Source: Rubripirellula obstinata
GTDB lineage: Bacteria; Planctomycetota; Planctomycetia; Pirellulales; Pirellulaceae
DNA length: 52,235 nt
NCBI RefSeq assembly: GCF_001642955.1
Contig: NZ_LWSK01000035.1
Span: forward strand, 1-52,235
Direction: 5' to 3'
This document shows, piece by piece, positions 1 through 50,883 of this stretch. A model generated the notes under the pieces. The model was not told the DNA's origin, searched no databases, and saw only the letters and a list, made by a program, of their open reading frames with translations. A program made the position numbers and the translations under genes. Position 1 is the first letter of the stretch; each line of letters opens with the position of its first letter.

Positions 1-222
1 AGCAAATTGGGCAAGCTGCACCATGGCAGGCAACACAAACTGGAACGCTGGGAAACATTGAGGCAACGGGACAATTGCCTGATCGCCAGTATGTAGGCCG
101 TAGCGAGCCATAGCGAGTTACGGCAATTTGCCCACCGCCGTAACTCGCTATGGCTCGCTACGGCCTACTTTCTACTTTCAAGGGTTGCTACAAGTTGACA
201 ACGACAAATTTTCATCAGCCCA
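1..222 (-). repeat. MITE-like dispersed repeat, copy 1 (cut by window edge)
   Basis: Read on the minus strand, this stretch begins with TGGGCTGATGAAAAT two bases after the stop codon of the ResB-CcsA gene. It matches 26720-26909 over about 200 bp in inverted orientation, with small indels and substitutions. It carries the same internal long palindrome (93-168). The far terminus seen in the other copy is missing because it would lie left of base 1. It has no coding potential. It is best read as a non-autonomous mobile repeat; that interpretation rests on the better-defined second copy. Confidence 0.75.
93..168. repeat. Long palindrome, GTAGGCCG family
   Basis: The arms are about 32 bp, start with GTAGGCCGTAGCGAGCC and end with GGCTCGCTACGGCCTAC, and are separated by a short spacer. 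As RNA or single-stranded DNA this would fold into one long hairpin. The same palindrome occurs at 26767-26841, and shorter relatives with the same outer core occur at 3915-3949 and 47996-48083. Confidence 0.85.
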
Positions 223-12323: not shown

Positions 12324-12339
12324 TGGGCTGATGAAAATG
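12324..12339 (+). repeat. Terminal motif TGGGCTGATGAAAATG
   Basis: This 16-bp word begins 16 bp after the stop codon of the ExbD-like gene. The same motif occurs at 207-222 (minus strand), 26720-26735 and 52112-52127, each time at the edge of a different repeat, so it looks like the end sequence of a family of non-autonomous elements. Confidence 0.65.
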
Positions 12340-12372
12340 CTGTGAGTGATGTTATTCGCGAACCAGTCGAAC

Positions 12373-12476
12373 GTTGCAAATTGCAAAATGAACATTGCAA
12401 ATTGAAAATTCTTGGGAAGCGGTATTTGCTGGTCAATTTACATTTTTCAGTGTTCATTTTGCAATTTGCAATCAAC
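12373..12476. repeat. AT-rich long imperfect palindrome, also at right window end
   Basis: The left arm begins GTTGCAAATTGCAAAATGAACA and the right arm ends with its near reverse complement, so about 40 bp on each side can pair with mismatches. The right half and its flank (12428-12495) reappear in inverted orientation at 52163-52232. The A+T content is far above that of the surrounding DNA. Confidence 0.8.
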
Positions 12477-12500
12477 ACCGAGGCCGGTCAGCCACACCCT

Positions 12501-21782: not shown

Positions 21783-22670
21783 ATGCCGACTCGAAGAACA
21801 TTTCTAGCCACCACGGCGGCGACCGCATTGGCTCGCTCGGCGTTTGCAGGCGATGCGTCGGCCGAGTCTGAATCGAATTCTATCTGCGTCTTTACGAAGC
21901 CGTTTCAATCGTTGACCTTCGACGAACTGGCGCAACAAACCGCTGCGGTTGGCTTTGGCGGCATCGAAGCTCCCATTCGGCCGGGCGGGCACATTGAACC
22001 AGAAGCGGTTCCTGACAAGCTTCCGGAACTGGTGGAATCACTTCGCAAACAAAACCTGAAGTTGACCGTCCTGACGTCCAACATCAACGATGCCTCGGAT
22101 CCGATCACTGAATCTGTTTTGAGCACAACGGCCAGTCTCGGCATTCGGTACTATCGCATGCAGTATTTTAAATACGACGAGGGAAAGTCGATCACCAAGC
22201 AGATCGACCAGTGGAATCGTCGCATGAAAGACCTGGCGGCGCTCAACAAGCAACTAGGAATTACCGGCGTCTACCAGAATCACGCGGGACGCAATTACTT
22301 TGGAGCTGCGATCTGGGATTTGCATCGAGGTCTCGACGGCATTGATCCCAACGACATTGGAGTCGCCTACGATATCCGCCACGCTGCGGTCGAAGCCGGA
22401 ATGAGCTGGCCGATCAACTTTCAATTAATTCGCGACCACGTTCAGGTTGTCTACGTCAAGGATTTCACATGGGGCGAGTCGGGGCTGACCAATGTCCCGC
22501 TGGGTCAAGGCGAAGTTGATCCGAACTTTTTCAGCATGTTAAAAAAAGCCAATTTCCGCGGTCCGATTTCTTTGCACCAGGAATACATTGACCACCGAAA
22601 TCCTAAATTGGTGCCACAGCACTGGGCCGCGATCAAGTCCGATTTCCAGACACTCAAATTTTGGTTGTAG
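21783..22670 (+). CDS. Tat-exported sugar phosphate isomerase/epimerase-like protein
   Basis: 295 residues. The N-terminus is a short twin-arginine type signal (PTRRTFLATTAATALARSAFA). The rest is an AP-endonuclease-2/xylose isomerase-like TIM barrel, with 'GFGGIEAPIRPGGHIEPE', 'GVYQNHAGRNYFG', 'VVYVKDFTW' and 'GPISLHQEYIDHR' supplying likely metal ligands (His, Asp, Glu). In planctomycetes such exported isomerases usually accompany Gfo/Idh/MocA oxidoreductases, and the next gene here is one, which suggests processing of a sugar or cyclitol outside the cytoplasm. The substrate is unknown. Confidence 0.85.
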   Translation: MPTRRTFLATTAATALARSAFAGDASAESESNSICVFTKPFQSLTFDELAQQTAAVGFGGIEAPIRPGGHIEPEAVPDKLPELVESLRKQNLKLTVLTSNINDASDPITESVLSTTASLGIRYYRMQYFKYDEGKSITKQIDQWNRRMKDLAALNKQLGITGVYQNHAGRNYFGAAIWDLHRGLDGIDPNDIGVAYDIRHAAVEAGMSWPINFQLIRDHVQVVYVKDFTWGESGLTNVPLGQGEVDPNFFSMLKKANFRGPISLHQEYIDHRNPKLVPQHWAAIKSDFQTLKFWL

Positions 22671-22750
22671 AAAGAAATAACCACGGCAAGCGTCGGAGCA
22701 CATCCAGTACTGCTTTATTTTCAAAACCTCACATTAGCTTTCATCAACCC

Positions 22751-24049
22751 ATGTCAAACCGAACAACACGCCGCAGTCTGATCAAGCAAACCGCAACAGC
22801 AGCGGGACTCGTATTCTGCCACGGTGCTTCGCCATCACGATTGTTTGCTGCCCCCAGCCCCAACGAAAAACTCAACATCGCCTGCATTGGTGTCGGCGGT
22901 CGAGGTGTGGCCAATGTGAATGGAGTGCAGAGCCAAAACATTATTGCAATGGTGGACGTTGACGAGAATCGAGCGGCCCCGACGCTGAAGAAGTTCCCCA
23001 ATCCTCGGCGATTTACTGACTATCGGAAAATGTTTGACACGCTGGGCAATCAACTTGATGCCGTCGTGATTAGCACACCCGATCATTCGCACTTCCATCC
23101 CGCATCGATTGCGATGCAAATGGGATTGCATGTTTACCTTGAAAAACCCCTGGCACACACGGTTGCTGAAACTCGGACGCTGACCAATCTGGCCCGCGAA
23201 AAAGGGATCGCAACCCAGCTCGGCGCTCAGCGTCACGCGATACCCAACATGCATCGCGTTGTTGAACACATTCAGGCGGGTGCAATCGGCAAGGTGAGCG
23301 AGGTTCACAGTTGGATCAATGGCAATCGCGGGATGCCTTCGATCCCTCTGGACAGTCCACCGGTTCCAAGCGGATTGGATTACGATCTGTGGATTGGTCC
23401 CGCGAAAAGTCGCCCCTACCATCCATCGTTTTGTCCTTACGGTTGGCGTTTTTGGTGGGATTTTGGAACGGGCGAAACGGGAAATTGGGGATGCCACGTC
23501 CTGGACATTCCCTATTGGGCTTTGGGGCTAAAACATCCATCACGAGTGGACGCAGTCGGTCCTGCGGTCGATGACCAACGCACGCCGACTTCGATGCATG
23601 TGACCTTTCAGTTTGCTGAGTCAAACCAAAACTCAGAGATCGTTTTGCATTGGCGTCACGGATCTCCTGACGAATTGCTTCGCCAGCACCGAATCGATGG
23701 CGAAGGAATGAATACGGTGTTCATCGGCAGCGAAGGCATTCTGGCCTGCGGCTTCGATACGCTGAAACTCTACCCCGAAGAAAAATACGCCGACTTCCGT
23801 GCCCCCAGCCCGACGATCCCGGACTCGCCCGGCTTCTATCAGGAATGGATCGCAGCCTGCCGAGGAGACGATGCCGCGACGTGCCACTTCGACTATTCGG
23901 GACCGCTGTCCGAAACCGTGTTACTGGGCAACGTTGCTTACCGAGCCGGTGGATTCGACTGGGATGCCGATGGACTAAAAACGGGCACCAACGCTGAAGC
24001 ACAAAGCCTGATCCAAACGGCCTACCGCAAAGGCTGGGAAGTAGTTTGA
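22751..24049 (+). CDS. Tat-exported Gfo/Idh/MocA family oxidoreductase
   Basis: 432 residues from the chosen ATG (MSNRTTRRSLIK); a longer in-frame ORF starting at 22661 would overlap the isomerase gene and mask the Tat signal. The twin-arginine signal (residues 1-34) is followed by a Rossmann fold with CIGVGGRGVANV (about 45-56), the hallmark EKPLAHT of the family and a C-terminal alpha/beta domain with 'GGFDWDADGLKTG'. These enzymes use tightly bound NAD(P) to oxidise or isomerise sugars. It pairs with the isomerase upstream and is probably in the same operon. Confidence 0.9.
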   Translation: MSNRTTRRSLIKQTATAAGLVFCHGASPSRLFAAPSPNEKLNIACIGVGGRGVANVNGVQSQNIIAMVDVDENRAAPTLKKFPNPRRFTDYRKMFDTLGNQLDAVVISTPDHSHFHPASIAMQMGLHVYLEKPLAHTVAETRTLTNLAREKGIATQLGAQRHAIPNMHRVVEHIQAGAIGKVSEVHSWINGNRGMPSIPLDSPPVPSGLDYDLWIGPAKSRPYHPSFCPYGWRFWWDFGTGETGNWGCHVLDIPYWALGLKHPSRVDAVGPAVDDQRTPTSMHVTFQFAESNQNSEIVLHWRHGSPDELLRQHRIDGEGMNTVFIGSEGILACGFDTLKLYPEEKYADFRAPSPTIPDSPGFYQEWIAACRGDDAATCHFDYSGPLSETVLLGNVAYRAGGFDWDADGLKTGTNAEAQSLIQTAYRKGWEVV

Positions 24050-24230
24050 CGCTTCGCGGGTAGCAAAGAAATCGCGCCGTTCCGTTTCGCCAAGCTAGTA
24101 AACCGACCGGCCTCGCCGAGCAGAGGTCGTGCAGATAAATGCAAACAGTCGTTGATCGCTCCGCGATCAGAACGTTCGTGAATCGTCCCGGCAGGACGAA
24201 AGCCAACGCCGTGAAGGGTTTCTAAATTGT

Positions 24231-24300
24231 TTAACCGCGTGGGCATCGCCCCGCGCGTTGTGCTGGCCCAAACGCGCGGGGCGATGCCCACGCGGCTAAA
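24231..24300. repeat. REP palindrome (CCGCGTGGGCATCGCC family), complete
   Basis: A near-perfect 70-bp hairpin: left arm TTAACCGCGTGGGCATCGCC, then CCGCGCG, a short loop, and the reverse-complement right arm ending CACGCGGCTAAA. It is preceded by CGCCGTGAAGGGTTTCT, which also precedes the related copy at 52070. Other copies are at 26661-26719 with 26937-26967 (interrupted) and 52086-52111 (half). It lies 3' of the oxidoreductase and 3' of the TPR gene, so it could act as a convergent terminator-like structure. Confidence 0.88.
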
Positions 24301-24443
24301 CGATCTAACACGTTTTTTCCGGGACCAAAACTCTTCACGGCGCTCGGGTGGGATCGCTTGAAAAATCGCAGCCTCATTGTCAGCTCGTAATATTTCGGGC
24401 AATTGACGATAGTAATTCCGTTGCCGTTTTCTTGCTTGCCCCC

Positions 24444-24503
24444 TGCGAATTGTAGATCTGCGAATTTTAGATCTGTGACTTGTAGATCTGCGACTTGTAG
24501 ATC
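24444..24503. repeat. 15-bp tandem repeat forming the C-terminus of the TPR gene
   Basis: Four consecutive 15-bp units (TGCGAATTGTAGATC and variants) run across the end of the minus-strand TPR gene. On the minus strand the units encode the repeated pentapeptide YKSQI. A one-base variant in the second unit creates the stop codon at 24467-24469, and the repeat continues beyond it. Confidence 0.85.
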
Positions 24504-26464
24504 TGCTGGAGATCACGAACGGGTTCCATCATACGAGCTGCCTGTTCCACCACCGGATCGTCCTCGCCGAGTGAATGGGTCATCACCTTAAACGTCGCTT
24601 CGGCCGAATCAAAGTCTTCTTTGGCAATCGCCAGTCGGATTTGAACTGTGAAGAGAGAGCGTGCTTCGGTGAAATGAAGTCGCGATCGCTTCATCAGTGG
24701 TGCCAGCATTTCGATTGCTGCACTCAGATTTTTATCGGCGACGTGACGCTGTGCCAATTCCGTCGTCGCAAACAAGTAGTCGGGATCTTTTTGATGAAGC
24801 TTTTCAAGCCATTGCCTTGCTTCGGCTTCAAACTCTTCCCCAAGCAGCCATGTTCGAGCCATCACCCAGTTAAATCTTTTAGGGATGTTATCGGGATCCG
24901 CGTTGACCAGCTTGTCGTGCAATTGGACCGCAAGTTCATAATCGCCATCGTATGCTGCTTGACATGCCCGTTCATTGATTTCTTGTATCTCCGGCGAATC
25001 ATCGGTGATCGTTTGTTCTTCATGAATTTCCACACCGCCGATGTACACTCCCTCCCATTTCCTGCGGCTAAAAAATCGATGCGGTCCACGGTCGATTCGC
25101 CCACATTCACGGAGATAACACAACGCGTCTAACCGCGAACTATCTGATCCACGCTCACCCAACGCGAACTGCAAAAGAGGCTCAATCAACGCATCATCAT
25201 CGAACTGTACCGATGCCTTGATGGCGATTTCGCGAGCAAGCGGGTCGCCGCGATCCAACAAGGCAGGAATGATGGGCTTGAGATAGTCTCGCAGTTTTTC
25301 GATGTTTTTTCCTGACCGCGATTTGCTTGAAAAATCACTAGTCAATGCCTTTGGCAACCAATGTTGCGCTGCCACAGCAAACGGCGCGTGCCCCACCTTT
25401 TCGTCCAAGTCGTTTAGGTTCTCTTTCGCCATGGAATACCCAGGAACCGCTGCAAGACTTTGACGCCAATGCTTTCTCGCTAGCCGTTTGTCGCCTTGGC
25501 GACAATATGCGTAGGCGACGTAGTGCAGCACCATTGCCTTGGCGGTCGAATCCGCCAGCGAATCACAATCAATGTTTTGGTGCAACGTCAGGATATCTTC
25601 ATCACGTCCGACCATTGCAAGCGTTTCAAAAAGCATGGTTATCGGATCAGTGTCGCTGGGCGGATCAGCCATCAGTTCGTCAAGTATTTGATTGGATTGA
25701 TCGTGGTCACCGCGAATCATTAACCAACGGGCCAGGATTGATCGCGTGAACGCATTGCCGGGATGTGCTTGAAGTGTTTTGGTGCTGACGTCGATCGCTT
25801 CATCGAGTTGACCGCGAAAAAACAATGCCATCGATCGGTTGTTCCATGGCGACGTAAATTCGGGGACTTGTTCGTTTAAGCATTCACAAAGCTTGTGACA
25901 TTGATCGTATTCTCCGTCGCCCAACAGTCCGATGCACTCTTCATGCTTGGCGTACATTGCCAGATCATCCGGGTAGCTCATCGCCACCTTGCTGAGTCGC
26001 TGTTTGGCTTCGGTTTCGAGTTTTCCAAGCAGGTGGCCTACTTTCGACTTCGCAGGATACGAATCTGGAAGTTTGGCGAATTGCAGAAGAGCCAAGCAAG
26101 CTCGCTCGCAGATCACTGACTGGATTCCGTAGAAGTATTGGGCTTGCATATCGGTCGGCGAAACTCTGGCCCAACGTCTCGCTTCAACCCAGGCAGATTC
26201 AGAGTCATCAATGCGTTGATACAGCGAGACCAAACACTGAGCAACCTCGGGAAATTCGCGATCGCTTGGCGTCAATTGTTTTGCGATTTCGATCGCTTCG
26301 TCAAAATCATGCTCATCAATTAATTCGATAATACGATCGACCCGACGGCTGACACCACGCGGCATCTTGCCCTGTGTGGCAATCGTTGACTGACCGCCTG
26401 TCCTTCGCCGCCGGTCCAGTTTTCTTCGTCGAGCGATTGCCGAATTTTTGTTTCCACGAGCCAT
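24467..26464 (-). CDS. TPR-repeat protein, unknown function
   Basis: 665 residues from the chosen ATG (MARGNKNSAIARRRK); an upstream in-frame start 18 codons earlier looks less likely. The first 40 residues are very basic. Several tetratricopeptide-like helical pairs follow, for example near 60-130, 165-245, 265-330 and 480-580, with 'AQCLVSLYQRIDDSESAWVE'-like and 'ALFFRGQLDEAIDVSTK'-like units. There is no signal peptide or membrane helix, so it is cytoplasmic. TPR arrays mediate protein contacts; no catalytic domain was seen. The last residues are a YKSQI repeat made by a DNA tandem repeat, which suggests the original stop was lost or moved. Confidence 0.82.
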   Translation of the reverse strand: MARGNKNSAIARRRKLDRRRRTGGQSTIATQGKMPRGVSRRVDRIIELIDEHDFDEAIEIAKQLTPSDREFPEVAQCLVSLYQRIDDSESAWVEARRWARVSPTDMQAQYFYGIQSVICERACLALLQFAKLPDSYPAKSKVGHLLGKLETEAKQRLSKVAMSYPDDLAMYAKHEECIGLLGDGEYDQCHKLCECLNEQVPEFTSPWNNRSMALFFRGQLDEAIDVSTKTLQAHPGNAFTRSILARWLMIRGDHDQSNQILDELMADPPSDTDPITMLFETLAMVGRDEDILTLHQNIDCDSLADSTAKAMVLHYVAYAYCRQGDKRLARKHWRQSLAAVPGYSMAKENLNDLDEKVGHAPFAVAAQHWLPKALTSDFSSKSRSGKNIEKLRDYLKPIIPALLDRGDPLAREIAIKASVQFDDDALIEPLLQFALGERGSDSSRLDALCYLRECGRIDRGPHRFFSRRKWEGVYIGGVEIHEEQTITDDSPEIQEINERACQAAYDGDYELAVQLHDKLVNADPDNIPKRFNWVMARTWLLGEEFEAEARQWLEKLHQKDPDYLFATTELAQRHVADKNLSAAIEMLAPLMKRSRLHFTEARSLFTVQIRLAIAKEDFDSAEATFKVMTHSLGEDDPVVEQAARMMEPVRDLQQIYKSQIYKSQI

Positions 26465-26660
26465 GATGACGTCCTTGATTGTTTTGGAACGGAAAAAGTC
26501 CAATGAAACCGAACGCATAACTTATCAATCACTAGCAATTTTGCACCCACGTTTTCGATGCTTTTCGCTGACAATCAGTTCTCGTGCATTGTCTCGTTTG
26601 CGGAACGGCTAAACCACAACGCCGCAAAGAGATTTTTCCCGAAAAACACGTGCTAGTTCG

Positions 26661-26719
26661 TTTAGCCGCGTGGGCATCGCCCCGCGCGTTCGGGCCGGCA
26701 CAACGCGCGGGGCGATGCC
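26661..26719. repeat. REP palindrome interrupted by a MITE-like insertion
   Basis: The left arm (TTTAGCCGCGTGGGCATCGCC), loop and first part of the right arm (AACGCGCGGGGCGATGCC) are present. The right arm then stops and resumes at 26937 with GCGATGCCCACGCGGTTAAA. The intervening 26720-26936 behaves as an insertion, and GCGATGCC (26712-26719 and 26937-26944) is repeated on both sides. Confidence 0.8.
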
Positions 26720-26936
26720 TGGGGTGATGAAAATGTGTCGTTGTCAACTTGTCACGAACCTTGAAAGTAGGCCGTAGCGAGCCATAGCGAGTTACGGCGT
26801 TGCGCAAATTGCCGTAACTCGCTATGCTCGCTACGGCCTACATACTGGCGATCAGGGAAATGTGCCGTTGCCACAATGCTTCGCAGCACTGCAGTTTGCC
26901 CAATTTGCTGCGATGCAACGATTTCCATCAGGCCAA
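26720..26936 (+). mobile_element. Putative 217-bp MITE-like element, complete copy
   Basis: It begins TGGGGTGATGAAAATG. Its end, read on the minus strand, begins TTGGCCTGATGGAAAT, giving imperfect terminal inverted repeats with a shared TGATGRAAAT core. It is flanked by 8-bp direct repeats GCGATGCC that join to restore an otherwise complete REP palindrome. A second copy, inverted, is at 1-222. It encodes no protein and carries the long GTAGGCCG palindrome (26767-26841) in its centre. A transposase encoded elsewhere must move it; which one is unknown. Confidence 0.7.
26767..26841. repeat. Long palindrome, GTAGGCCG family, inside the MITE
   Basis: The arms are 31-32 bp, with the same sequence as 93-168 except for one base missing from the right arm and a different loop. 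It would form a stable hairpin. Confidence 0.85.
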
Positions 26937-27125
26937 GCGATGCCCACGCGGTTAAACGGTTCAGACGTTGGCTAAACCAGGTGATGACGCGATGGCGTAG
27001 AGGTCGTCCGCTTCAAGGACATGCACGTCGCCATCTAAGCGAGTACCGTTTTTATTGGCTTCCAAATCGAGTAAGCAACTTCGATCGAGCCGGGAAAACA
27101 CGTGTTATGTTAGCGCATAAAAGAA

Positions 27126-27162
27126 GGGCCATGGTGAAGCCCTCCCTGCCTCACCATGGCCC
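27126..27162 (-). terminator. Rho-independent terminator for the Cys-rich gene at 27320
   Basis: A perfect 12-bp stem (GGGCCATGGTGA / TCACCATGGCCC) with a 13-nt loop is followed on the minus strand by TTCTTTTAT. It lies about 160 nt beyond the stop of the minus-strand Cys-rich gene. A second 8-bp hairpin (GGAACGAA / TTCGTTCC, 27172-27194) precedes it in the same transcript direction, so the 3' UTR has two stem-loops. Confidence 0.7.
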
Positions 27163-27319
27163 ATCAAATGCGGAACGAAGGCACCGTTCGTTCCACCCTC
27201 CCAATCCATGGTACTAGTAGCATCGGCCAGCGATTGACAATCGCTGAAACTCTTTTGCTAACTGCACCACATTTTCTTAAAAATGATACCTGATTGGTCT
27301 TGCGAGGGCCGAACCTGGG

Positions 27320-28204
27320 TTAGTGACAAAACCCGCTGTCGCAGCCGGAATCGCAACTGTCGCAATCGTTACAAGCTTGTCGTGGAGGCAAAACCTCGCC
27401 ACAGCTTCCGCCACAAAGACCGCTCAAACAACTGCGTTTCTTTTTCGTTCCGCAATCACAGGTGCCGTTGGCGTGTTTGTGGTCAGCACTGCATTCCCGT
27501 GTGTAGCCGTCCCAGACGTTGGTGTTACAGCGGTCGCTGCGGAAGTACTGACGTAGCGTTGACGCGGGCAGATTCACAGCAGTCCGTGGCGGGCAAACCT
27601 TTTGCTCGACGTGCTTGTGTTTCTTTCCTAGCCCCAACCCACATCCTTTACCGCAACCACTCCCACAACCACTGCTGCAACCACAAGGTGCGTCGATGAT
27701 TTCACCGCAACCGGGCCCGCAGCAGGATTTGCATCCCAGCTTGGGTAACCGAATCGGCCTTCGGGGCATAGGCATGGCGTCGCAAGCGTCGCACGATCCA
27801 CCATCACAACTGGAACCAGCGTGATGATGCCCGCCGAGCAAGTGCCCCACTGAACTTGCTGCGACCTGGCCTGACCTTGCTGTCATCTGCCCAAGTGCCG
27901 ACCTGGCTGACATCGACGAATTACCTGGGACCCTATCACGGTTGACAACCCGATCACGGTTGACGATAGGTGCCTGCAAGGTTGCAGCGCCAGCACTGTA
28001 CGCCTGGTGACCCGATGGAACTGGACGAAGAGCCGCAGCAGAATGGTGATTCGCAATGCCGAGAGGCTGTGCATTGGTGGTTCGTTTGGAGAAGTTCAGC
28101 TCAGACAGAAGGGAGCGAAAATCGTTTGCACATGACTCCGTGAAACTGATCACCGAGAAGGCCACAGTGAGGACAATAGCGACGGCAAGATTGAAGTGGT
28201 TCAT
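27320..28204 (-). CDS. Cys-rich secreted protein 1
   Basis: 294 residues from the chosen ATG (MNHFNLAVAIVLTVAFSV), which is preceded by AAGGATGACC, a reasonable ribosome-binding site. A Sec signal peptide (about 1-24) is followed by a Ser/Ala/Arg region with a repeated VNRDRV, then a His patch (GGHHHAGSS) and a Cys-rich half with CGSGCGKGCG, 'CKSCCGPGCGEI' and a C-terminal 'CDSCDSGCDSGFCH'. No CXXCH haem motif is present. The Cys and His content suggests metal binding or a disulfide-rich surface protein. It shares its style (DSGCDSC motifs, signal peptide) with the protein at 37477, so the two may be paralogues. Confidence 0.8.
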   Translation of the reverse strand: MNHFNLAVAIVLTVAFSVISFTESCANDFRSLLSELNFSKRTTNAQPLGIANHHSAAALRPVPSGHQAYSAGAATLQAPIVNRDRVVNRDRVPGNSSMSARSALGQMTARSGQVAASSVGHLLGGHHHAGSSCDGGSCDACDAMPMPRRPIRLPKLGCKSCCGPGCGEIIDAPCGCSSGCGSGCGKGCGLGLGKKHKHVEQKVCPPRTAVNLPASTLRQYFRSDRCNTNVWDGYTRECSADHKHANGTCDCGTKKKRSCLSGLCGGSCGEVLPPRQACNDCDSCDSGCDSGFCH

Positions 28205-28380
28205 AGCAAGGTCATCCTTGAATAGGGGAACGGTGTGGTTCATCAATCAAGACCCGCTGCCAAACTCACTGTTCCATGTTTTTGTAAAGGTGTTTCGATA
28301 CGGTTCAAGGAGCTTCGGGAACCAAGTTTTTGGTTTAACGTGTGCTCTTGAATCGCCACCAAACAGCTCGCCAAATCACC

Positions 28381-28413
28381 GATGACCAAGTGCATGAATT
28401 GCACTTGATCATC
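28381..28413. repeat. 14-bp inverted repeat upstream of Cys-rich gene 1
   Basis: GATGACCAAGTGCA and TGCACTTGATCATC are separated by 5 bp with one mismatch. It lies about 180 bp upstream of the minus-strand Cys-rich gene, between it and the glnD stop. It could be a regulator-binding site or the 3' hairpin of glnD, but it is not followed by a T-run on the minus strand. Otherwise the 512-bp gap (28205-28717) holds no gene I can support. Confidence 0.45.
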
Positions 28414-28717
28414 TGGTGTTTAAGCGGCAACCAGTGAGTCGGTGATCGCTTGGTGAATCCCCGTGATAATCCGAGGCGGGCGGTTGAAGGCCAAGCCTGG
28501 GTTTTGGGTGGCGGGTTTCGCCTTGCGATCGTGATCGTTGACCAACAAAGAATTGCCGCGCCCGTCAAGGGCTGCAAATGATTTCGAGCAAAACAAGCTC
28601 GGATGTGAAGAAATGCAAATGCTTAATGAGAACGAACAGCAGACACTTCTTAACTAGACAGCTTTCGCCAACCACTAAACTCGACGCAACGAGAGCAATG
28701 CATGATCGCGTCCGAGT

Positions 28718-31366
28718 TCAAACATCATCCACCACGCTAAGCATCGCTTGCCGCACTGTTTCTTGACGCTCTGGATCGATTAGCTTGGATCCATCTTGTT
28801 CGCTAACGTAGAAAACGTCCGCCACTTGATCGATGTGCGTGTCAATCTTGGCGAACGACAGATTCAATTTCTGTTGAGACATCGCCAGCGCGATCCGAGA
28901 TAGCAAACCAACTCGGTTGTAGGCAAAAAACGAGATGATGGTGTAACGATCAATCGACTCGTTATCAAAGACGACTTTCTTTGGCAAAACATTCACGCTA
29001 TCCGGTTCCGACAACTCCTTGGGACTCCAAGTCTTTGGCGGTTTCGGCATCGGTTGCTGAGTTGAATCAATCAAGTCGCGAACACGATTGCTGACCGCAT
29101 CGATGGTCCTCGCATCGAGTTCAGGTTCCTGATCGCTCAATCCCACCTTGGAATCGACCACCCAGAAATAATCCCAGGCGAAGTCACCGACAGTTTCAAT
29201 CTGAGCTCTTTGAATGTCGAAACCGTTTGCTGCGAGTGCTGCCGTTGCGCGAGCAAAGGTTCCCATCGTCAAATAGTCCTCGCGACGAATGACAACAAAA
29301 CGCAATGCTTGAACCGCGTTATCGTATCCCGCCATGCAAATGGTTCGACGATCGTCATCCCAATCAAATGCTCCCACCGCCATGATTTCGGCTGCCAATG
29401 AATCAGCCTCGCAGCGACTAAGCAACGACAATGGCATGTCCGAAAGCAACTCTCTGGCCTGGGGCAAAAGTTCTGCGCTGCAATGCTTGATAAGTTGCTC
29501 ATCGACTCGGTTGCGAGTTCGGTCAATTTCTGGATCGTCGGGACTTCCCGGTAAGTCGCCCGAATCAAAGTACCGTCGCGTTCGGCGATACAGGTCTTCG
29601 ATCAAATTCAATTTCCACTGCGTCGCGACACCAGGTCCAACGGCGGTAAGATCACAGTAAGTGTGAACGACCAACATTTCCAACCGCCTGATGGAGCCTA
29701 CTTCGGCGGCGAACGACAAAACGATCTGCGGATCGCTCAAGTCATGCCGAAAGGCAACCACGTTGACGATCAAATGCTTCAGCACCAACCAGCGCAGCAT
29801 TTCGGAATCACTGGAGCTAAGATTCAACCGATTGGCGACCTTTTCAGCAATTCGTTCGCCGACGATGCAGTGATCTTCTTCGTAGCCCTTGCCGATGTCA
29901 TGCACCAGCAAGGCCAAATGAAGCAGTCGCTTATCCTCGATTCGCCGATAGCGCCGGCCCATGCCTGATTCTAAATCGTCCTGCAAATCGGTTGCCGCTT
30001 CGACAGCTAGAAAGCTGTGCGCGTCGACGGTGTACTTGTGATAGGCATTGAATTGCAACAGCCCTCGCATCCGCTCGAATTCAGGAATCAGTTGTTCAAT
30101 AATTCGCAGTTCATGCAGACGCCGAAGCAGATCCGCCAGACGACCTGGGCGGCTCAACAACGACAGGAACGATTCGATGGAACGTTCGTCCGGCGGCGAC
30201 GGTTCGCGTTCTCGCATCGCATTACGGATCGCCTGCCACGTTCGGTGCGAAATTCGACGGGTGTGTTGATTGGCAAGACTCATCAAACCCAGCACATCGG
30301 GTAAGCTGTTGGAAAATTCCTTCAGTGCGTCTTGCCGAACCCAAATGCTGGTTGGGCCCATTCGAATGTTGTCGCTCATCTTCCTGGATAGCGCCGACTC
30401 CGTCAGCCTAGCCGGCAGCGAGCGGCTTCTGGCATCGTCAACAAAGTAGGCTGAACTGTAACGGACGTTACGTGTGTTATCGAAATAGTCCTGCATGAAC
30501 TGCTCAACCGGCAGCACACCATCGTCGCCCTGGTAACCCCATGCTTTGGCGATGTCCATCTGCGTTGGGCGATCAAGCACGTCCTGACTCTTGCCGCTGC
30601 GAAAATGCAATTCATGCCGAACCCGCAACATGAATCCATAGGCTCTTCGCATCAGCCGAAAGTCCTCTTCGGGTAGGGCCCCCAGTTTCAGCAGGCGTTC
30701 CAAATCGGTCTCGCCAAACCGAGCGAACCCGATCCAGCGAATCAATTGAATGTCTCGCAAAGCACCGCTGGACCTTTTAACATTGGGGCGGAGCATATAG
30801 TTTGTCTCGCCCCATTTGCTTCGTTCTTCGCGTCTCGCTTCGACGATGTTTTTGATCAGACGATTGCTACGTCGTTTTGCACCGAGGCGATACGAATCAA
30901 AAAACTTGCGGTAAAGCTGCAAACCGCCAGCCAAGAACCGCGACTCGGTCAACGACGAAAAAACCACCGCATCAGTCCACGACAATGAACAAGCTTCGGC
31001 GGGCGAACGAATCGATAGACCAGGATCAATTCCACAGTCTGATAAATCACGCGTCAGGTTGCCGGCAATTTTGGCCGCCAAGTCGGCTGAACCGCGCGTC
31101 GATAACAGCATCAAGTCGGCGTCAGAATACGGGGCAAGATCGCGACGCCCGAAACCACCGTGAGCGACCAGTGCCAATCCGCTTAGCCGATCGTCGTCGC
31201 CGTGCTGGGCGATCGCTTGGTGCCAGATTTCCAAGACAACATCATCATAGAGATCCGCCAGCAGGGTTGAGACTTGCATCCCTGGGCTGCCCAACCGGTG
31301 TTGGGCGTAGGCCTTTTCGCGGCCCGCCTCCAGCATTTCACGACATCGGTTGATAAATGGCCGCAT
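28718..31366 (-). CDS. glnD: Bifunctional PII uridylyltransferase / uridylyl-removing enzyme
   Basis: 882 residues, the usual GlnD length. The nucleotidyltransferase motif is VAHGGFGRRDLAPYSDADL (about 67-85, catalytic Asp82 and Asp84). A GlnD-linker helical region follows, then an HD domain with 'YHKYTVDAHSF' and 'LVHDIGKGYEEDH', and two C-terminal ACT domains ('VVIRREDYLTMGTFARA' and 'IISFFAYNRVGLLSRIALAM'). It adds UMP to PII when glutamine is low and removes it when glutamine is high. The PII gene lies about 230 bp upstream on the same strand, so the sensor and its target are together. Confidence 0.95.
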   Translation of the reverse strand: MRPFINRCREMLEAGREKAYAQHRLGSPGMQVSTLLADLYDDVVLEIWHQAIAQHGDDDRLSGLALVAHGGFGRRDLAPYSDADLMLLSTRGSADLAAKIAGNLTRDLSDCGIDPGLSIRSPAEACSLSWTDAVVFSSLTESRFLAGGLQLYRKFFDSYRLGAKRRSNRLIKNIVEARREERSKWGETNYMLRPNVKRSSGALRDIQLIRWIGFARFGETDLERLLKLGALPEEDFRLMRRAYGFMLRVRHELHFRSGKSQDVLDRPTQMDIAKAWGYQGDDGVLPVEQFMQDYFDNTRNVRYSSAYFVDDARSRSLPARLTESALSRKMSDNIRMGPTSIWVRQDALKEFSNSLPDVLGLMSLANQHTRRISHRTWQAIRNAMREREPSPPDERSIESFLSLLSRPGRLADLLRRLHELRIIEQLIPEFERMRGLLQFNAYHKYTVDAHSFLAVEAATDLQDDLESGMGRRYRRIEDKRLLHLALLVHDIGKGYEEDHCIVGERIAEKVANRLNLSSSDSEMLRWLVLKHLIVNVVAFRHDLSDPQIVLSFAAEVGSIRRLEMLVVHTYCDLTAVGPGVATQWKLNLIEDLYRRTRRYFDSGDLPGSPDDPEIDRTRNRVDEQLIKHCSAELLPQARELLSDMPLSLLSRCEADSLAAEIMAVGAFDWDDDRRTICMAGYDNAVQALRFVVIRREDYLTMGTFARATAALAANGFDIQRAQIETVGDFAWDYFWVVDSKVGLSDQEPELDARTIDAVSNRVRDLIDSTQQPMPKPPKTWSPKELSEPDSVNVLPKKVVFDNESIDRYTIISFFAYNRVGLLSRIALAMSQQKLNLSFAKIDTHIDQVADVFYVSEQDGSKLIDPERQETVRQAMLSVVDDV

Positions 31367-48083: not shown

Positions 48084-48138
48084 GTCAATTCACGAGACGT
48101 TCCACAAACGACGACCCGCCGAACAAAGGTTCGATTTC

Positions 48139-48537
48139 ATGTCCAGTTTTACCGACGCTGAAATCGCAGCCTTCTTGGATGAAGCACTCGCACCTGCCCG
48201 CAGCGCTGAATTTGAATCAGCACTTCGCGACGACGAACAACTCCGCCAACGCTTGATCTCAGTCCGCGGACGCGAAACCGCGGGACTTCACACCGTCGGC
48301 GCAATCTGGCGACGCCGAAGATTGTCATGCCCTAATCGAACCCAACTCGGACAATTCGTTTTGGGCACGCTCGATGAAGACCACGCCGACTACATCCAAT
48401 TTCACATCCAAGAAATCGGTTGCCGCTACTGCGAAGCCAACCTAGCCGACCTGCAAGCCGCCAGTCAAAAAACGCAGCAATCGACCCAGCGACGACAACG
48501 TTACTTCCAAACCAGCGCCGGTTATCTGAAACGTTAG
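48139..48537 (+). CDS. Putative zinc-binding anti-sigma-like protein, copy A
   Basis: 132 residues. The first 45 residues are helical ('EIAAFLDEALAPARSAEFES'). The C-terminal half has 'LGQFVLGTLDEDHADYIQFH' followed by 'GCRYCEANL', a His-X-Cys-X-X-Cys pattern as in zinc-finger anti-sigma factors, although one further ligand is not obvious. There is no membrane helix. Planctomycetes have many such proteins, but the assignment is tentative. An almost identical gene lies at 49751. Confidence 0.7.
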   Translation: MSSFTDAEIAAFLDEALAPARSAEFESALRDDEQLRQRLISVRGRETAGLHTVGAIWRRRRLSCPNRTQLGQFVLGTLDEDHADYIQFHIQEIGCRYCEANLADLQAASQKTQQSTQRRQRYFQTSAGYLKR

Positions 48538-49743: not shown

Positions 49744-50883
49744 CGATTTCATGTCCAGTTTTACCGACGCTGAAATCGCAGCCTTCTTGGATGAAGCACT
49801 CGCACCTGCCCGCAGCGCTGAATTTGAATCAGCACTTCGCGACGACGAACAACTCCGCCAACGCTTGATCTCAGTCCGCGGACGCGAAACCGCGGGACTT
49901 CACACCGTCGGTGCAATCTGGCGACGCCGAAGATTGTCATGCCCTAATCGAACCCAACTCGGACAATTCGTTTTGGGCACGCTCGATGAAGACCACACCG
50001 AATACATCCAATTTCACATCCAAGAAATCGGTTGCCGCTACTGCGAAGCCAACCTAGCCGACCTGCAAGCCGCCAGTCAAAAAACGCAGCAATCGACCCA
50101 GCGACGACAACGTTACTTCCAAACCAGCGCCGGTTATCTGAAACGTTAGGTCACTTTGCGGTAACACAAAAAACCGACTTGATAGGGCTCATCCGACAGA
50201 AGCGTGCGTCAAGGTTCGTTGAGGACTTTCCAGGCCGAAGGTGGGTTTCTCAGCGGAACTCAATGTCGAACACGAACAAGGAATCTCGAATGTTGAACTG
50301 TTTGTTCGCACATGTCCCGGACTTCCTCATTGAAAACTCCTTGTTCGACATTCGATGTTCTCCAACGGTCCACACAGCCTTCGGCAATAAGTTGGTCGCT
50401 AAAAACAACCATCTTTCGACACTTCTCAGTGAACGCCACCAATCAAACGCTCGAGCGTGTGTAGGCCGGAACAAGCCGCTTCGGCGCAGTTCCGGCAAGT
50501 GCATGGTACGGCGTTGGATCGCCGACGAGCAAAAAGGTGTCAGGTACCAATTTGGCTGTCTAGGCAAGCTGTTGGTCGATCGTTAGTTTCTGTGATATTG
50601 AAAACACTTCACTAAGAGCGACGACATGGGGCGACCAAAGAGAGCCGACGAAGCAGGTTGCATTTATCACATGCTCAATCGGGCAAATCGTCGCGATGAG
50701 ATCTTTGAGAAGGAAGCTGACTACGAAGCGTTTGAGAGAGTTCTTATTGAAGCGGTATCACGCTACGAGGTTGAACTATTTTCGTATTGTTTGATGCCCA
50801 ATCATTGGCACCTTTGCGTCCGCCCAGGTGTTGACGGTGAAATGTCGCGGTTCGCTCAGTGGCTCACCCTGACCCACACTCAG
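49744..50883 (+). repeat. Duplicated block, copy B (1140 bp)
   Basis: The second copy of 48132-49271. It starts 12 bp after the right inverted repeat of the intact RAYT element and ends abruptly inside the second RAYT gene, where another transposase element follows. Confidence 0.95.
49751..50149 (+). CDS. Putative zinc-binding anti-sigma-like protein, copy B
   Basis: 132 residues, differing from copy A by two residues (HTEY for HADY at about 79-82). The same His-Cys-Cys pattern is present. Both copies keep an intact reading frame, so both could be expressed; whether both are needed is unknown. Confidence 0.68.
   Translation: MSSFTDAEIAAFLDEALAPARSAEFESALRDDEQLRQRLISVRGRETAGLHTVGAIWRRRRLSCPNRTQLGQFVLGTLDEDHTEYIQFHIQEIGCRYCEANLADLQAASQKTQQSTQRRQRYFQTSAGYLKR

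Follow-up and report, generated by a model that had tools for sequence, protein, structure and literature searches.

A miniature element within a palindromic repeat of Rubripirellula obstinata and a predicted DDE transposase with the same ends

How did a short stretch of foreign DNA come to lie within one arm of a palindromic repeat in the planctomycete Rubripirellula obstinata, and which enzyme could have put it there? The stretch occupies positions 26720-26935 of contig NZ_LWSK01000035.1 (RefSeq assembly GCF_001642955.1), analysed here over its whole length of 52,235 nucleotides (hereafter, the window). A first-pass annotation, made from the sequence alone, had read it as an element resembling a miniature inverted-repeat transposable element (MITE), inserted into a repetitive extragenic palindromic (REP) sequence. 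Our results make it very likely that the stretch is a copy of a non-autonomous element, family A, which inserted into the palindrome arm with a 9-bp target duplication, and that its movement was driven in trans by a DDE transposase belonging with P0001, a protein predicted in the same genome.

A non-coding element interrupts a palindromic repeat

Reading of positions 26500-27150 delimits the insertion on both sides. The left portion of the palindrome (26661-26719, plus strand, its start taken from the first-pass annotation) ends in ...GCGCGGGGCGATGCC at 26719; a foreign stretch then begins with TGGGGTGATGAAAAT and ends in ATTTCCATCAGGCCA at 26935, followed by AGCGATGCCCACGCGGTTAAACG, and the palindrome picks up with ...GCGATGCCCACGCGGTTAAACG (right portion, 26936-26966, plus strand). 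Once the insert and one of the two repeat copies are taken out in silico, the rejoined site shows 0/16 mismatches to the arm consensus, and an intact palindrome proposed earlier as the uninterrupted counterpart was confirmed at 24223-24307, where it represents a paralogous empty site. Flank comparison revised one detail: the target duplication, first described as 8 bp, is 9 bp long, with a left copy GGCGATGCC (26711-26719, plus strand) and a right copy AGCGATGCC (26936-26944, plus strand) that differ at one position here, and with perfect 9-bp repeats at other copies of the element. The family A copy in the window, defined by sequence reading, own-genome BLAST and alignment, is therefore 216 bp (26720-26935, plus strand) rather than 217 bp (26720-26936). 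It is bounded by terminal inverted repeats, TGGGGTGATGAAAAT at 26720-26734 (plus strand, one mismatch to TGGSCTGATGAAAAT) and TGGCCTGATGGAAAT at 26921-26935 (minus strand, one mismatch). The absence of an open reading frame (ORF) from the insert also held up: in a scan of 22000-29500 for ORFs of at least 120 aa none overlaps 26720-26935, and 216 bp has room only for ORFs of fewer than 72 aa.

The target is indeed a palindromic repeat; the GTAG-tagged REPs lie within the element. There, an inverted pair of GTAG-tagged REPs, GTAGGCCGTAGCGAGCC...GGCTCGCTACGGCCTAC, forms a structure at 26767-26841 resembling a bacterial interspersed mosaic element, and the target palindrome carries no such tag. 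According to PMC3733652, this tag marks the REPs associated with REP-associated tyrosine transposases (RAYTs). The palindrome arm GCGTGGGCATCGCCCCGCGCG has 254 + 261 genome matches at up to two mismatches, against 0 for the reversed control, so that the target is a high-copy repeat. The REP pair inside the element is abundant as well: its 15-mer GTAGGCCGTAGCGAG has 325 + 339 (664) genome matches at up to one mismatch (control, 0). Among the 28 matches listed in 452 kb at up to two mismatches, six lie in MITEs (four flagged by our script and two in the window copy, which the flag had overlooked), eight in an array on contig C1 with surroundings resembling the family A interior, and 14 elsewhere. 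With at least half of these matches outside family A-like sequence, the REP pair belongs to a repeat family that has free-standing members as well.

Two miniature families share the same ends

The insertion is one of many. BLASTN of the insert against its own genome, as recommended by the first-pass annotation, gave 105 rows, many of which reflect the internal palindrome matching itself. The end pattern TGGSCTGATGAAAAT has 270 genome matches at up to two mismatches, against 15 for the reversed-pattern control, which corresponds to elements numbering of the order of 120. They include two miniature families with the same ends and unrelated interiors. Family A has a 241-bp consensus (pairwise divergence averaging 8.0% in an alignment of 24 full-length copies), from which the window copy differs in length by the loss of one 24-base block and one further base; family B has a 224-bp consensus (15 copies aligned, mean pairwise divergence 5.1%). 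No GTAG REP was seen in family B, yet its ends, target and repeats are those of family A, and the recurrence of ends and target around an unrelated interior speaks for movement in trans by a P0001-family transposase.

Family A has the features by which MITEs are recognised: it is short (216-241 bp) and non-coding, carries terminal inverted repeats TGGSCTGAYGAAAAT, is flanked at independent copies by a duplication of fixed length (9 bp), and has a potential autonomous partner with the same ends, a 1702-bp element that would mobilise it. MITEAba12 is reportedly another bacterial MITE. Family A was found in only one of 60 searched genomes, its own, with at most 13 best candidates scored per genome. 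In G003, of the same genus, many sequences match the palindrome part of the query, with no match to family A or to the transposase.

Several irregular copies were observed. Tandem arrays of family A occur on contigs C270 (L151:1-468, 183 bp x 2.6) and C25 (L049:1498-1978, 216 bp x 2.2) of the R. obstinata assembly (G000), and junctions resembling CTGGTTCCCAGACG lie ahead of several copies. The family A copies in loci L031, L033, L048, L054 and L056 end at or just past the GGCCTAC of their internal REP pair, a pattern suggestive of deletions that terminate at the hairpin. Contig ends truncate many other copies: of 100 listed end places, at least 21 are no more than 200 bases from the start of a contig. 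MITE copies are probably behind many of the breaks in this assembly of 307 contigs.

The target is a symmetric 9-bp motif

The duplication was assessed for 49 elements with both ends recognisable among the fetched loci, a subset of the 270 end places comprising 30 copies of family A, 16 of family B and three others (a B-like copy, the coding element and one unclear). The 9-bp flanking repeat is perfect in 14 of the 49 and matches at eight or more of nine positions in 26 (12 A, 13 B and one B-like), whereas in 10,000 shuffles of the right flanks the number of perfect pairs averaged 2.8 and peaked at 9. With the ends fixed as TGG...CCA, perfect pairs appear at no length between 4 and 13 except 9; an 8-bp duplication was accordingly rejected (0 perfect pairs, against 14 at 9 bp). 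The excess of matched pairs over the shuffles and of end matches over their control places the insertion pattern beyond chance.

The target consensus, GGCNNNGCC, is symmetric. In the 26 well-matched copies, position 1 is G in 25, position 2 G in 25, position 3 C in 19, position 7 G in 24, position 8 C in 23 and position 9 C in 24. On contig C265, nothing but GGCATCGCC separates a family B copy from a family A end, meaning that one 9-mer was used twice. A palindrome arm flanks at least one side of 32 of the 49 copies and neither side of the other 17, and 18 of the 26 well-matched copies are located in a palindrome. Insertions at the exact motif fall in palindromes in 15 of 16 cases, compared with 54 out of 210 occurrences of the motif over 400 kb of this genome (Fisher 7e-8). 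This contrast mostly disappears once the background is limited to intergenic or palindromic sites (p 0.16, 0.041 and 0.007 at gene-calling cut-offs of 80, 120 and 200 aa), and we do not claim strong recognition of the palindrome beyond the motif. Palindrome targeting may need no more than the symmetric 9-bp motif and selection against insertions in genes.

A coding element encodes a predicted DDE transposase

The first-pass annotation had suggested that a DDE-type transposase elsewhere, rather than a RAYT, may mobilise the element, and had advised comparing the termini with the ends of full IS elements in the genome. The suggestion is supported: an end match (L032) led to a coding element of 1702 bp (L060:2588-4289) with ends TGGGCTGATGAAAAA and TGGGCTGATGAAAAT and a predicted DDE protein, which would act in trans. 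Its single ORF encodes P0001 (516 aa; G000 contig C2, 25702-27249), with the start set at GTG (L060 position 2703) behind AAGGAG. This is the only coding element with these ends among the loci examined; a second copy of P0001 is cut by a contig end, its last 66 residues being 98% identical. The family A consensus is identical to the coding element at 17/17 positions of the right end and 74% identical over 42 bp at the left. Beside the element, on the minus strand, lies a 406-aa ORF (L060:4544-5764) with a pattern that by eye resembles a RAYT.

Searches of Pfam, NCBIfam and PDB sequences gave no convincing hit to a transposase for P0001 or its relatives. With 16 members searched at E up to 1, the insertion sequence (IS) matches in NCBIfam, among the 25 of 41 families listed, were to IS5 (0.02) and ISH6 (0.025), by one member each, and in Pfam no transposase family appeared among the 25 of 77 families listed. 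The other matches among the families shown are of coiled-coil type, in addition to two Pfam domains of unknown function (3.4e-5 and 4.1e-5) matched by single members. An AlphaFold2 model built on 16 sequences (mean predicted local distance difference test score 85.4, predicted template modelling score 0.71) has a strand-strand-strand-helix-strand core in which D167 ends the first strand and D236 lies just past the fourth, and E436 and E439 begin a late helix that is preceded by some 200 residues of mainly helical structure. D167, D236, D260, H263 and E439 are invariant in 12 members, and E436 is replaced by D in the Thiodictyon and cyanobacterial members, so that E439 is the likely catalytic residue; the motif D260xxH263 begins 24 positions after D236. 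On this model, P0001 is predicted to be an RNase H fold DDE protein with D167-D236-E439 and a DxxH motif. In a Foldseek search of the PDB, all 11 matches with E of at most 0.001 were to Hermes (best 4.8e-5) or to ISCth4 (best 5.9e-5), the latter reportedly placed in the context of IS256; Transib (1.6e-3) and RAG (1e-2) came next, mixed with UvrC and, lower down, unrelated proteins. Hermes, the best match, is a hAT transposase of DDE type with a helical insertion; it differs from P0001 in sequence (9-13% identity) and yields template modelling (TM) scores of only 0.28-0.40 over its matches. Duplications made by hAT elements are usually 8 bp.

Copies, common ends, 9-bp repeats, target motif and coding element are all present in this genome, and from the ends, the repeat length and the target we infer that P0001 moves family A. 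In the mechanism that we propose, a P0001-family transposase would bind the 15-17-bp ends TGGSCTGAYGAAAAT and cut with an RNase H-type active site formed by D167, D236 and E439, a chemistry deduced from the model. The symmetric 9-bp target that receives the ends, in most cases GGCNNNGCC, would be joined to them with a stagger of 9 bp, which repair would convert into a direct repeat. Insertions would pile up in the abundant palindromes because these hold the motif in each arm and lie between genes.

Relatives of P0001 in other genomes

Relatives of P0001 were found in five of 60 near-relative genomes, R. obstinata included, and in at least two of 392 genomes sampled across the phylum, a floor set by a search of low sensitivity that scored at most three best candidates per genome for most rows. 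A scan of GTDB contigs with one peptide pattern yielded 17 relatives among 81 stretches, 16 of them with planctomycete titles and one titled only bacterium; three of these loci (L099, L101 and L105) are the same places as loci of the near-relative genomes. Ends were searched in 16 of the 17 (L108 left out). No convincing end pair was seen in L098, L100, L106 and L107, a flank is missing in L092, L095 and L101, and a perfect 9-bp repeat surrounds three of the nine with both flanks readable (L099, L102 and L104).

Two genomes with relatives are assembled as single contigs. In G430, all three copies, with ends TGGGCTGCGCGAAATC, are flanked by perfect repeats (GGCTCCGCC, GGCAGAGCC and GGCTCCGCC). 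In G032, three of four copies with ends TGGCCTGACGAATCGG have perfect repeats (CCCTCCGGG, CCCGGAGGG and CCCGGAGGG, of which the second is interrupted by other DNA), and the fourth (CCCGGCGGG) has one end altered. More distantly, 11 plasmid records, from Nostoc, Calothrix, Gloeothece, Thiodictyon and Persicobacter, match at 20-27% identity; the annotation under the match is hypothetical protein only in ten records and no feature in one. Five of seven plasmid loci examined have the ends and a perfect 9-mer (L210, L211, L213, L215 and L216, the result for L211 being taken from printed flanks), and no convincing ends were seen in L212 and L214. None of 62 stretches of viral contigs encodes a relative.

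In R. obstinata itself, two further relatives were found, L062 with ends TGGGCTGCGCAACTG and L064 with unclear ends. Both belong to a divergent branch (with L213, L215, L216, L105 and L165) whose transposase is divided between a coiled-coil-like ORF and a catalytic ORF that overlap in different frames; in L062 and L064 the overlap is A-rich. P0001, by contrast, is one ORF. The split arrangement suggests programmed frameshifting or slippage.

Which machinery moves family A

Several observations weigh against movement of family A by a P0001-family transposase with 9-bp duplication. The first-pass annotation would have given up the insertion model if other copies lacked the same ends or a direct repeat; the ends recur and the repeat is present in 26 of the 49 two-ended elements, so that the model stands, although 23 elements lack the repeat, matching at seven or fewer of nine positions, and require later recombination, decay or misassembly. 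The flanks of the intact coding element itself, palindrome arm GGCGATGCC on the left and GGGTCAGGC on the right, match at only 4/9 positions, and six of the nine readable GTDB relatives lack a perfect repeat. Families A and B match the coding element at their ends only, and their interiors did not arise from it by deletion; an origin of family A as its deletion derivative was rejected on these grounds. In G032, where end matches comprise the eight ends of the four elements and 22 weaker ones (control, 3), there is no sign of MITEs of its own element: none of 12 weaker matches inspected has a second end at up to two mismatches in its locus. The fold matches have TM-scores of 0.2-0.4 and root-mean-square deviations of 12-19, and thus support the fold type, not a family. 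Finally, an empty site in close strains, as called for by the first-pass annotation, was not obtained among 22 genus genomes, in which the intergenic flanks are unmatched except over some 100 bases downstream and, weakly, at the far end of the query. Some unmatched flanks have a recognisable form: at C286:34652 and C101:15408, the two flanks are opposite palindrome arms, the outcome to be expected if copies located in different palindromes had recombined, with misassembly as the alternative, and L097, one of the six imperfect GTDB relatives, has opposite arms as well.

Another transposase with the same end recognition, for instance that of a lost or unassembled autonomous element, could move family A, with P0001 having similar ends only. 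The mismatched flanks of the only full P0001 element, the rarity of P0001 (one full and one contig-end copy), the restriction of its likeness with family A to the terminal 17 to 42 bp and the fragmentation of the assembly at element ends all favour this reading, which has, in our judgement, a small though real chance of being right. It is opposed by the standing of P0001 as the sole coding element with these ends among the loci examined, and by G430, where a homologous transposase again goes with the 9-bp repeat and the GGCNNNGCC motif. The REP pair within family A raises a different idea, that the RAYT (HUH tyrosine transposase) system of GTAG-tagged REPs moves the insert. The REP is numerous, at least half of its matches listed in 452 kb lie outside family A-like sequence, and the RAYT-like ORF lies next to P0001. 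Target duplications, however, are not expected from RAYT transposition, whereas here whole elements are flanked by 9-bp repeats and the candidate partner is a predicted DDE protein; family B has the same ends and repeats without such a REP, and no Pfam family matches the neighbouring ORF at E 0.01. A RAYT/HUH origin was rejected on the 9-bp repeats and the second family, and we regard it as very improbable. Least probable of all, and only marginally less so, is that contigs misjoined within high-copy repeats mimic an insertion. Contigs do often end inside elements, nearly half of the flank pairs are unmatched, and one contig (C239, L015:1-14) opens with CGCTCTTCCGATCT, which we take to resemble sequencing-adapter sequence, before the repeat. 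Misjoins, however, would not yield an excess of matched 9-bp pairs over shuffles, and coding relatives show the same architecture in the single-contig genomes G032 and G430.

Other features of the window

The window holds three further copies of the two families, of which two are cut by its ends. The inverted second copy of family A noted earlier at 1-222 (minus strand) is real, beginning at element position 27 with the rest cut off by the contig start. One family B copy lacks its right end (12324-12496, plus strand); another, at the same palindrome site with left flank GGCATCGCC, is cut by the contig end (52112-52235, minus strand). After the truncated family B copy, TGGGCCGCTAAATCTTTGGTATTGACAT runs from 12504 onward and recurs near L064; it is perhaps the end of another element. 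Downstream of the insertion, about 90 bases (27125-27215) contain two inverted repeats with C-rich loops and are matched in 19 of 21 other genus genomes at 90-94% identity. The stretch looks like an unnamed small RNA, and an Rfam scan of the window gave no match at the gathering score, the best for this stretch being E 0.038 (21.1 bits, cut-off 72.2). Two 300-base direct repeats (48132-48431 and 49744-50043) are 99% identical and lie 1612 bases apart from start to start.

Comparison with known systems

PMC3942029 lists IS256, ISH6, ISLre2, the ISKra4 group and a Mycoplasma integrative conjugative element as p-MULT 1-5 and gives Mutator-like transposases a C/D(2)H signature, which D260xxH263 of P0001 fits. 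The 8-9-bp direct repeats described there for p-MULT agree with the 9 bp of family A and the P0001 relatives. In contrast, the p-MULT helical insert spans 99-138 residues, compared with about 200 between D236 and E439 of P0001; the C/D(2)H lies 11-19 residues after the second aspartate rather than 24; and the conserved terminal cytosine stands against ends of TGG...CCA here and TAGG in distant members. By its fold matches P0001 shares the general fold type, without a convincing match to the family models. Among REP-targeting elements, PMC1525189 names ISPsy8, ISRm22, ISRm19, ISPa11, ISPpu9/10, IS1397, ISKpn1 and IS621, which, like family A, hit a repeated palindrome at a fixed point; they belong to IS3, IS110, IS4, IS256 and IS5, whereas P0001 matches no family model convincingly and most copies here are non-coding. 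RUP, NEMIS, ERIC and Nezha, as covered in PMC3733652, resemble family A in being short and non-coding, with terminal inverted repeats and a transposase elsewhere, but have other ends and another target than family A, which holds a GTAG-tagged REP pair.

Implications

MITEs are known to insert into REP-like palindromes, and the present case is well supported. What this analysis adds is a specific putative partner, recognisable by fold, catalytic motifs, ends and 9-bp repeats, and recorded on plasmids as hypothetical. By comparison with Pfam and NCBIfam models and PDB sequences, ISfinder not included, P0001 represents a putative transposase lineage that these resources do not name, and searches of the open PMC literature turned up no description of the element or its ends, ISfinder, subscription journals and preprints having been outside that search. 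With slightly more doubt than confidence, we propose that P0001 defines an undescribed IS family of Planctomycetota, with distant forms in Cyanobacteriota, Gammaproteobacteria and probably Bacteroidota. It would combine a DDE transposase with a 200-residue helical insert and DxxH, T(G/A)GG ends and duplications of 9 bp, and its preference for a symmetric, GC-rich target, GGCNNNGCC in R. obstinata and G430 and CCCNNNGGG in G032, would direct it to palindromic repeats. In this genome it would have bred two MITE families, of the order of 120 elements, one family carrying a RAYT-type REP pair as cargo.

If this is true, one palindrome family has been spread by a DDE transposase into another palindrome family. 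The putative lineage offers a test case both for target symmetry alone sending elements to palindromic, intergenic sites and for a REP pair carried by a DDE-type element.
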